A stretch of DNA of 64,000 nt from Marivita lacus (GTDB taxonomy: Bacteria > Pseudomonadota > Alphaproteobacteria > Rhodobacterales > Rhodobacteraceae). A model generated the notes under the pieces. It worked only from the letters and a program-made list of their open reading frames with translations. It had not been told where the DNA came from and made no database searches. Positions 60,356 through 61,669 of the stretch are shown here, in pieces; the first letter of the stretch is position 1, and each line of letters starts with the position of its first letter. Both the position numbers and the translations under genes were made by a program. The stretch covers positions 684,632 through 748,631 of the forward strand of contig NZ_BMFC01000001.1 of assembly GCF_014637725.1 (NCBI RefSeq), in the 5' to 3' direction.

Positions 60356-60778
60356 TCATGTATCCGGGTCAATCTTGCCACGGAGTGATTTCACCTCACC
60401 CCGCACCTTCTTTTCCTTGAGCCGTCGCTTCTTTGATCCCAGTGTCGGTTTCGTGGCGACCCGCCGTTTGGGTGGGGTCAGCGCAGCAACGATCATCTCT
60501 TTCAATCGATCTCGTGCAATATCACGGTTGCGCGCCTGAGACCGTGTCTCGTCGACCTGAAGGACAATCGCACCCTCCTTGGTCCATCTTCGCCCAGCGA
60601 TCCGGCGCAGGCGGGTTTTCACCGGACCCGGCAAGTTGGGAGAGCGATCCGCCTCAAAGCGCAGTTCCACCGCTGATGAGACCTTGTTCACGTTCTGCCC
60701 GCCGGGGCCGGACGCACGGATGAACTGTTCCGTCAGTTCCCAGTCTTCGATGGTGATGCGGTCTGAAATCTGAAGCAT
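60356..60778 (-). CDS. arfB: Peptidyl-tRNA hydrolase ArfB-like (release factor domain)
   Basis: Rescues stalled ribosomes by hydrolysing peptidyl-tRNA. The 140-aa protein carries the catalytic GGQ in IRASGPGGQNVNKVSSAVELRF near residue 23 and a basic C-terminal tail (TLGSKKRRLKEKKVRGEVKSL) that enters the mRNA channel. The ATG at 60778 matches the family; 16 upstream codons are open but unlikely. Downstream of a minus-strand terminator at 60809. Confidence 0.92.
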   Translation of the reverse strand: MLQISDRITIEDWELTEQFIRASGPGGQNVNKVSSAVELRFEADRSPNLPGPVKTRLRRIAGRRWTKEGAIVLQVDETRSQARNRDIARDRLKEMIVAALTPPKRRVATKPTLGSKKRRLKEKKVRGEVKSLRGKIDPDT

Positions 60779-60808
60779 GGCCAGTACCATAATGCGCGGG
60801 GGATCACA

Positions 60809-60837
60809 CAAAAAGGGCCGCCACATGGGCGACCCTT
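60809..60837 (-). terminator. Rho-independent terminator (minus strand)
   Basis: Read on the minus strand: AAGGGTCGCC-CATGT-GGCGGCCCTT with one G-T mismatch, followed by TTTTGTGTG. A strong terminator 31 bp before arfB that ends whatever is transcribed through 60840-61040. Confidence 0.85.
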
Positions 60838-60862
60838 CGAGACTTACGGAGGTGGGGTTCGG

Positions 60863-60892
60863 TTAGGTTCCACACCAATTCGATGGGTTCAT
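60863..60892 (-). other. Nine-codon ORF inside the small transcript
   Basis: ATG at 60892 encodes MNPSNWCGT and stops with TAA at 60863. The ATG sits in the loop of a TGGGT/ACCCA hairpin. No good Shine-Dalgarno. Recorded because of its position between the 18-codon ORF and the anti-SD at 60848; coding is doubtful. Confidence 0.25.
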
Positions 60893-60907
60893 CACCCAGG
60901 GGCTGCC

Positions 60908-60964
60908 CTAGATGCTTGCCTCTCGAACTGTTCCGACACCTCTCTCCAATACCTCTCTCGACAC
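60908..60964 (-). CDS. 18-codon ORF with an exceptionally long Shine-Dalgarno
   Basis: On the minus strand, GTG at 60964 opens MSREVLERGVGTVREASI, TAG at 60910-60908. Seven bases upstream of the GTG ends GGAGG, part of GAAAGGAGGTGATCCAG (60980-60964), complementary over 17 nt to the standard 3' end of 16S rRNA. Downstream on the same strand CACCTCC (60854-60848) can pair with the GGAGGTG. The unit ends at the terminator at 60809. Either a tiny peptide gene or a regulatory RNA/leader; I do not recognise the family. Confidence 0.5.
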   Translation of the reverse strand: MSREVLERGVGTVREASI

Positions 60965-61039
60965 TGGATCACCTCCTTTCAGCTGTTGATAAAACGCATC
61001 TTCAGCGTGACAGGCTTTGCGCGGGGTGCAACCCTTTTC

Positions 61040-61669
61040 TTACGAAAAGGCCGCTTTTTCACGAAAACGCAAAACGATGAGTCGAAATGGTATCAGTGCC
61101 AGCAAGGCCAACGCGATCTTGACCATCCAGTCGGCAACCGCCAGAGACACCCAAAGCGGGGCCACCGGGCCAACGCCCAGCATCGGGAGCATTTCGCCCG
61201 CCCATGAAACGTCGTTTGCCGGTTCGATAAAGCTCAGACTTGCCGAGAACGCGATGCTGAAAAACAGCGCAGTATCGACCGACGCGCCGATCAGCGTGGA
61301 TGCAAGCGGCGCGCGCCACCATGCGCCATCGCGCATCTTGTCAAAGATCGACACGTCCAGAAGTTGCGCCGTCAGAAACGCGATGCCCGAGCCGAGTGCG
61401 ATCCGCAAGGTGACGAGCGGGCCGAATTCGCCCTGGATCTGTGTGCCGATCAGCGAACAGATCACGCCGACGATGAATCCGGCAAAGACCACCCGGCGCG
61501 CGGCGCTGGGGCCGTAGAGGCGGTTCATCACATCGGTGACGAGAAAGGCAAGAGGATAGGTGAAGGCTCCCCATGTCAGCCAGTTTCCGAACAGGAACTG
61601 GACAAGGATGTTGGAGGCCAACACGATGAGGGCCATGGCAATGATGCCAGGAATATGTGTGCGGGTCAT
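61040..61669 (-). CDS. yhhQ: VUT/YhhQ-family queuosine precursor transporter
   Basis: A 209-aa inner-membrane protein with six hydrophobic helices, e.g. GIIAMALIVLASNILVQFLFG and TYPLAFLVTDVMNRLYG (the conserved TDVxNRxYG motif). YhhQ takes up queuosine precursors (preQ0/preQ1) in E. coli. The ATG at 61669 is the conserved start; 30 codons upstream are open. The stop codon lies in a CCTTTTC/GAAAAGG hairpin. No preQ1 riboswitch is evident in the leader. Confidence 0.87.
   Translation of the reverse strand: MTRTHIPGIIAMALIVLASNILVQFLFGNWLTWGAFTYPLAFLVTDVMNRLYGPSAARRVVFAGFIVGVICSLIGTQIQGEFGPLVTLRIALGSGIAFLTAQLLDVSIFDKMRDGAWWRAPLASTLIGASVDTALFFSIAFSASLSFIEPANDVSWAGEMLPMLGVGPVAPLWVSLAVADWMVKIALALLALIPFRLIVLRFREKAAFS

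Follow-up and report, generated by a model that had tools for sequence, protein, structure and literature searches.

The window, a stretch of 64,000 nt from Marivita lacus, carries near its end a compact unit on the minus strand, lying between a yhhQ-type gene and an arfB-type gene of the same strand (Vut_1 and RF-1 domain matches; Table 1). Its 5′ block contains GAAAGGAGGTGATCCAG (minus strand, 60980-60964), 17 nt that are complementary to the 3′ tail of 16S rRNA and whose last G doubles as the first base of a GTG start codon (60964-60962). An 18-codon open reading frame (ORF) follows, the anti-Shine-Dalgarno (anti-SD) stretch CACCTCC is located 122 nt after GGAGG, and the unit ends in an intrinsic terminator. 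These elements had been named in the original prediction, which proposed a new small RNA or peptide locus in which CACCTCC can mask the Shine-Dalgarno (SD) sequence GGAGGTG; the 16S match, the ORF placed after the SD (60964-60908), the anti-SD (60854-60848) and the terminator (60838-60812) were confirmed as it had described them.

When the 16S tail was scored against 68,780 segments of 24 nt on both strands, the duplex at 60980-60964 was the strongest of the window (−35.0 kcal/mol), and the next distinct site reached −26.9 kcal/mol. The 15-mer core of the complement occurs once in the window with up to two mismatches allowed, the expectation from shuffled sequences being 0.21. A 16S gene was not found in the genome itself by a search that was positive in just 9 of 14 control genomes; therefore, the tail was read from a relative of the same family, the one of eight genomes tried that gave a match, in which four copies all end in CCTGCGGCTGGATCACCTCCTTTC. 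The predicted fold of 60987-60806 beats 200 of 200 shuffles (z −4.2), and two covariance models, one built here and the other that of Rfam family RF01867, cover 60988 to 60812 or 60814.

Table 1. Features of the unit and its surroundings (window positions; helix percentages are paired cells in the family alignment)
Feature	Position	Strand	Basis or remark
Whole RNA unit	60812..60993	-	Putative 5′ end about 13 nt upstream of GAAAGG; 3′ end within the terminator's T run
17-nt complement of the 16S rRNA 3′ tail	60964..60980	-	Sequence match, duplex energy
SD GGAGGTG	60970..60976	-	Invariant in 96 aligned loci
18-codon ORF, GTG start, TAG stop, MSREVLERGVGTVREASI	60908..60964	-	Reading frame, codon conservation
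Hairpin of SD spacer and start codon (TCCAGTGT) with codons 5-7 (GTATTGGA)	60945..60968	-	Helix 2, 96.6% paired
Small stop-codon hairpin (AGGGCAGCCCCT)	60898..60909	-	Helix 5, 91.3% paired; changes on both sides in 3 of 3 pairs
CCGA, 3′ arm of a long-range helix with TCGG 60936-60933 (codons 10-11)	60859..60862	-	Helix 3, 96.9% paired
Anti-SD CACCTCC, partner of 60970-60976	60848..60854	-	Helix 1, 670 of 672 cells paired
Intrinsic terminator	60812..60838	-	Fold; two-sided changes in 11 of 13 pairs
Possible -35, TTGCAC	61026..61031	-	Assigned by position in relatives; the automatic best pair at the window locus is a different one
Possible -10, CACGCT, weak	61004..61009	-	Assigned by position in relatives; 23 nt before GAAAGG
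arfB-type gene (RF-1 domain)	60356..60778	-	Domain match; neighbour outside the unit
yhhQ-type gene (Vut_1)	61040..61669	-	Domain match; neighbour outside the unit

In 102 of 132 rows, mostly from one family, the best -35/-10 pair lies with its end 19-22 nt upstream of GAAAGG (mean score 7.03, compared with 6.42 for shuffled sequences); judged by this spacing in relatives, transcription would begin about 13 nt upstream of the SD block. A consensus scan of 60700-61120 on both strands, which is not decisive, returned no promoter-like site. At the end of yhhQ lies an inverted repeat, CCTTTTCTTACGAAAAGG (61033-61050), that is terminator-like on the plus strand.

Homology to RF01867 and distribution of the unit

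At gathering scores, an Rfam search of the window gave no match, rRNA families included. A relaxed search aligned the unit with RF01867 over positions 1-159 of the 159-position model (34.9 bits, E 5.4e-6), below the gathering score of that family (75 bits). The two share the 5′ block CAACA..GAAAGGAGGTGATCCAGTGTC, the position of the start codon, the terminator and a similar length, and differ in their ORFs. Judged by sequence, the window locus is a diverged relative of RF01867 and stands beside a known, uncharacterised RNA family, so that the claim of a wholly new locus does not hold. RF01867 is CC2171, a small RNA of Caulobacter credited in citations to Landt et al. (2008); a list for Mesorhizobium huakuii equates MH_s33 with RF01867 and gives its transcript range in RNA-seq; an Rfam 15 table mentions CC2171/RF01867; and two earlier predicted Caulobacter non-coding RNAs are translated, the passage not stating which two (Schrader, 2014). 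No function was found in the literature searched on CC2171/RF01867.

Among 61 relatives, 40 have an RF01867 match at E ≤ 1e-3, and one exceeds the gathering cut-off. A phylum sample of 299 genomes contains 73 with a match, 12 of them over the cut-off; all 73 belong to the class of the window, in a sample whose out-of-class share is not stated. Four listed genomes of the window's own family in that sample gave no RF01867 match. The gathering score of 75 bits misses most of the copies found here. The phylum sample yielded 19 new loci, 18 with the block and a start codon and one (L340) without a strict match. A family model built here from 20 sequences matches 226 of 246 Rhodobacteraceae genera at E ≤ 1e-3, some of them marginally, and the remaining 20 not at all. 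Of 385 genomes from the class, 33 contain an exact 19-mer followed by a start codon, and none contains the reversed control. The exact-pattern matches, at least 120 stretches, keep the 16S-tail complement in many families; among the 80 listed, on which the survey of ORFs across families is based, are Bradyrhizobium, Bosea, Methylobacterium, Ancylobacter, Microvirga, Brevundimonas, Azospirillum, Falsiroseomonas and many Rhodobacteraceae. Conservation reaches well beyond the first description of the locus. One genome (G048) holds two different copies (L037 and L325, MSHCHALNAAS... and MSHGSAKGSVQ...), and paralogues therefore exist in that family.

The yhhQ gene is located upstream in 95 of 101 family rows. 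In 84 rows arfB follows the unit on the same strand, and in 82 of these 84 it lies 174-347 nt from the SD; in the other 17 rows, no arfB match was present downstream within the fetched flank. The predicted placement between yhhQ and arfB is thus correct for the window, but the arfB neighbourhood is not constant, and in other families it differs. The 23 loci examined from those families show no common neighbour, some lacking a called neighbour and some having called frames that are probably not genes, with the exception of two families that share an aldolase-like neighbour (L026, L035). Because neighbours differ between families, the unit likely works either in trans or by being translated itself. 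One locus (L024) has, beyond its principal arfB match, two additional partial matches to the arfB C-terminus at 2212-2520 (unit orientation).

Conserved pairing and reading frame

From the 226 matched Rhodobacteraceae genomes, 90 new loci were taken (the top 30 and 60 at about 124-143 bits, weaker matches being left out), and 101 of 103 loci were parsed (all but L111 and L133); three genomes occur in duplicate (L017/L099, L020/L104, L021/L096). One model, with the SD:anti-SD helix built into it, served both to find and to align the family loci, and the counts ignore relatedness. Among 96 aligned loci, the SD GGAGGTG shows no variation, and the helix is paired in 670 of 672 cells; of the 61 cells that depart from the commonest pair, 59 are G-U wobbles. 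The anti-SD reads CACCTCC in 36, CATCTCC in 30 and CGCCTCC in 25 of the 101 rows, and the pattern is absent in 10, nine of which are in the 96-locus alignment and one (L030) outside it. Because the alignment was fitted to the structure, the wobble pattern is stronger evidence than the pairing percentage. The suggested search for compensatory changes thus found changes of the wobble type on the anti-SD side alone; a two-sided change could not be observed because the SD is invariant. The refuting observation named beforehand, close relatives that lack the SD/anti-SD pair, was not made in the loci examined. The whole structure has a covariation score, kinship ignored, of 0.288, compared with 0.193 for shuffles and at most 0.088 for slid versions, and it beats 500 of 500 shuffles.

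Folding energies, which describe naked RNA without S1, Hfq or cotranscriptional folding, were computed for 34 of the 101 family rows. The predicted probability that the SD is unpaired is 0.05, compared with 0.33 when the remainder is shuffled, and 33 of the 34 rows have the lower value in the native RNA. The mean cost of opening the ribosome site is 9.6 kcal/mol; a duplex with the full 16S tail pays for it in 34 of 34 RNAs, and the 6-nt core in 12 of 34. The pairing through which CACCTCC had been proposed to mask GGAGGTG is predicted and conserved.

The ORF comprises 18 codons in 98 of 101 family rows. Since the ORF parser admitted ATG, GTG and TTG starts alone, the evidence on the start codon comes from the 96-locus alignment (GTG 93, TTG 2, ATG 1) and from 40 fetched variant sites, consisting of all 31 in which GATCC is followed by neither AA nor AG and 9 of the 19 in which it is followed by AA; AG sites, in which 16S genes and units are mixed, were left out. 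At the fixed distance, these 40 sites have ATG in 23, GTG in 12, ACC in 4 and GCA in 1, giving ATG or GTG in 35; CTG was allowed by the search pattern and did not occur, and T as the first base was excluded by it. We take the four ACC sites to resemble 16S genes, and the automatic 16S test did not flag them. Codon 19, whatever the ORF length, is TAG in 41, TGA in 38, TAA in 19 and a sense codon in 3 of the 101 rows; TGG is absent, where independent variation at the two purine positions would give 15.5 of 95, relatedness being uncorrected. Such preservation of start and stop codons is as expected of a translated small ORF. The ratio of nonsynonymous to synonymous change in Rhodobacteraceae is 0.67 in frame, compared with 1.05 and 1.14 in the other frames, and among 95 distinct ORFs, codons 10-12 retain V in 89, G in 90 and T in 94, the last of these with its third position as well (ACA in 93 of 95).

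In other families, the same 5′ block is followed by ORFs of 14-59 codons that encode differing peptides. The larger sets have ratios of 1.21 (25 codons, 65 pairs; 0.85 and 0.68 in the other frames) and 2.07 (14 codons, 36 pairs), and two very small sets, of 7 and 2 pairs, have 0.56 and 0.68. Selection on the amino acids thus appears to be absent from the larger sets outside Rhodobacteraceae and modest within that family, and constraint on the start and stop codons seems stricter than that on the peptide. Searches of three ORFs of 56-59 residues and one of 24 residues against NCBIfam and Pfam, and of one of 26 residues against NCBIfam alone, gave nothing above the cut-off; the 18-mer is below the usable length for these searches. 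Bradyrhizobium-type copies (L195, L201, L205, L206, L218, L227, L229, L242, L080) have a 14-codon ORF, VSxxKRCHLAGIAR, containing CACCTC and CTGGGATC, two stretches by which the ORF itself could cover the SD. In Azospirillum (L214, L238, L247) and in L056, L300, L337, L338 and L067, the 16S-complement block precedes an ORF of 55-59 codons with a signal-peptide-like start and a Ser/Thr-rich tail; the three of these that were searched gave no Pfam or NCBIfam match above the cut-off.

Outside Rhodobacteraceae, codons 2-9 pair with the stretch directly before the terminator, at an average of −18.2 kcal/mol for a locus's own partners compared with −11.9 kcal/mol for swapped ones. None of 20,000 permutations reached the own-pair total in 29 of the 32 outside loci (L079, which has no terminator, and two near-duplicates were dropped), and the own pair exceeds the mean of the swaps in 25 of the 29, failing in L027, L059, L077 and L080. 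For the corresponding helix at codons 2-6 in Rhodobacteraceae, which offer little variation, 431 of 5,000 permutations reached the own total (91 rows), which is not significant. Masking of the SD was considered as a feature of the whole class and was not found outside Rhodobacteraceae, where the SD is unpaired with a probability of 0.37 compared with 0.29 for shuffled sequences and is lower in 8 of 29 loci; gating by masking is therefore specific to the lineage. Relatives outside the family show just the helix between ORF start and the stretch before the terminator, whereas the window unit is predicted to mask its SD with the anti-SD. Taken together, the closing helix outside the family and the masking within it alone make the closed body look common to the families and the covering of the SD look like an addition of Rhodobacteraceae.

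Proposed ribosome docking and competing readings

The homology, the conserved pairing and the kept start and stop codons are properties of the sequences themselves and support a genuine small-RNA and small-ORF locus with a translation-linked layout, as the original prediction had proposed. From these properties we infer that the unit is transcribed, opened by the 30S subunit and translated. The reading we prefer, to which we give an even chance, is a self-contained, mRNA-like small RNA of about 180 nt, homologous to RF01867 and gated by the 30S subunit. In the closed state of the Rhodobacteraceae, the distal anti-SD would shut the SD and the local hairpin would shut the start codon; an ordinary 6-nt SD core would often be too weak to open this fold, and the full 16S-tail complement would be strong enough, so that docking of a free 30S subunit would open the RNA, after which the tiny ORF would be initiated and terminated. 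We infer from the opening costs that the extended complementarity gives the 30S subunit access to a masked site against which an ordinary SD would often fail. Counting against this reading, so long an SD duplex may hinder the ribosome's departure from initiation. The RNA would be translated briefly and the peptide would be of minor importance: selection seems to keep the docking site, start, stop and fold, with the peptide mattering little outside Rhodobacteraceae, and therefore the likeliest output is the RNA as such or in its ribosome-bound form, as in a dual-function or ribosome-sensing RNA. Candidate downstream roles would be action as an RNA, reporting on free 30S subunits or a small peptide function in Rhodobacteraceae. 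A more tentative extension is that the unit would serve as a sensor of free 30S subunits across Alphaproteobacteria, in which 30S supply sets the balance between an open, translated and a closed state and the ORF merely loads and releases ribosomes; opening in Rhodobacteraceae would also free CACCTCC, a mimic of the 16S tail that could act on other messages.

The in-frame ratio of 0.67 in Rhodobacteraceae leaves room for a functional 18-residue peptide, VSRxxLExGVGTxxxxxx, that represses its own translation and for which the RNA fold is just the control; the constant ORF length and the kept V, G and T would fit such a gene. Several of the conserved codons also sit in RNA helices, however (6-7 in helix 2, 10-11 in helix 3), and keep their third positions as well, and the peptides of other families look unrelated, with ratios above one except in the two tiny sets, so that we regard a peptide gene as rather unlikely. 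A comparably doubtful reading is that the RNA is non-coding and acts in trans on the 16S tail by binding it, as a ribosome decoy or a modulator of initiation, the ORF being incidental. Outside Rhodobacteraceae, the SD is unmasked and the covarying body closed, and the 16S-tail complement is kept across many families, all of which would suit a trans binder; against it, a start codon at fixed spacing and the avoidance of TGG at the stop suggest that initiation and termination matter.

The position of arfB, on the same strand and mostly 174-347 nt from the SD, raises the further explanation of a translation-sensing cis leader or attenuator, since a ribosome-sensing leader before a ribosome-rescue gene would make sense. 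Yet a conserved terminator separates the unit from arfB, 17 of the 101 rows have no arfB match in the fetched flank, and the 23 loci of other families have other neighbours, so that the position before a regulated gene is not constant; we consider this improbable. The identity of the 17 nt with a 16S end on the opposite strand could also indicate a fragment or copy of a 16S gene end, or a chance match. The similarity ends at the 17-mer (by eye), the rRNA families have no match in the window, and many genera share the context of start codon, body and terminator; with the unique 15-mer, the outstanding duplex energy and the conservation of the whole unit, this origin was ruled out and its probability is negligible.

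The small RNA occurs in most sampled Rhodobacteraceae genera, has relatives in many other Alphaproteobacteria and has been little noticed in the literature searched. What makes it interesting is how widely the family is spread, its match to the ribosomal tail and a masking confined to one lineage. The combination of an unusually long 16S complement, constant start and stop codons and a peptide free to change points to a role for ribosome docking itself, and the over-strong SD offers a directly testable case for how such a sequence behaves and can be masked.

Several known systems share parts of this architecture. In type I toxin mRNAs (hok, AapA3), the SD is hidden by long-distance 5′-3′ pairing and local hairpins (PMC6733600), and the window unit likewise has a strong SD, a short ORF, a local hairpin and a distal anti-SD near the 3′ end, with masking of the SD in the full-length RNA predicted and the pairing conserved. 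Unlike the small hydrophobic toxins, its 18-residue peptide VSREVLERGVGTVREASI is charged (by eye); it has no known antisense RNA and is present in nearly all sampled genera. In S. aureus, cryo-EM revealed two extra base pairs in extended SD initiation (PMC13009471); the window unit resembles this case in 16S pairing beyond the SD core toward the start codon, and differs in that up to 17 complementary nt, in a predicted pairing, belong to one small RNA. The alphaproteobacterial RNAs Pos19 (219 nt with a 150-nt sORF, under RpoE; PMC5036791) and rnTrpL/peTrpL (a leaderless attenuator; PMC10117765) also hold a short sORF within a small RNA, and both are set apart from the unit by their published descriptions rather than by sequence comparison; the length and sORF published for Pos19 differ from those of the unit and speak against identity (PMC5036791). 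SmelA075/RS0680a carries several loop copies of CCUCCUCCC that are thought to bind ribosome-binding sites (PMC3927594); an anti-SD stretch is common to it and the window unit, which, unlike these several loops, has a single copy predicted to pair with its own SD.
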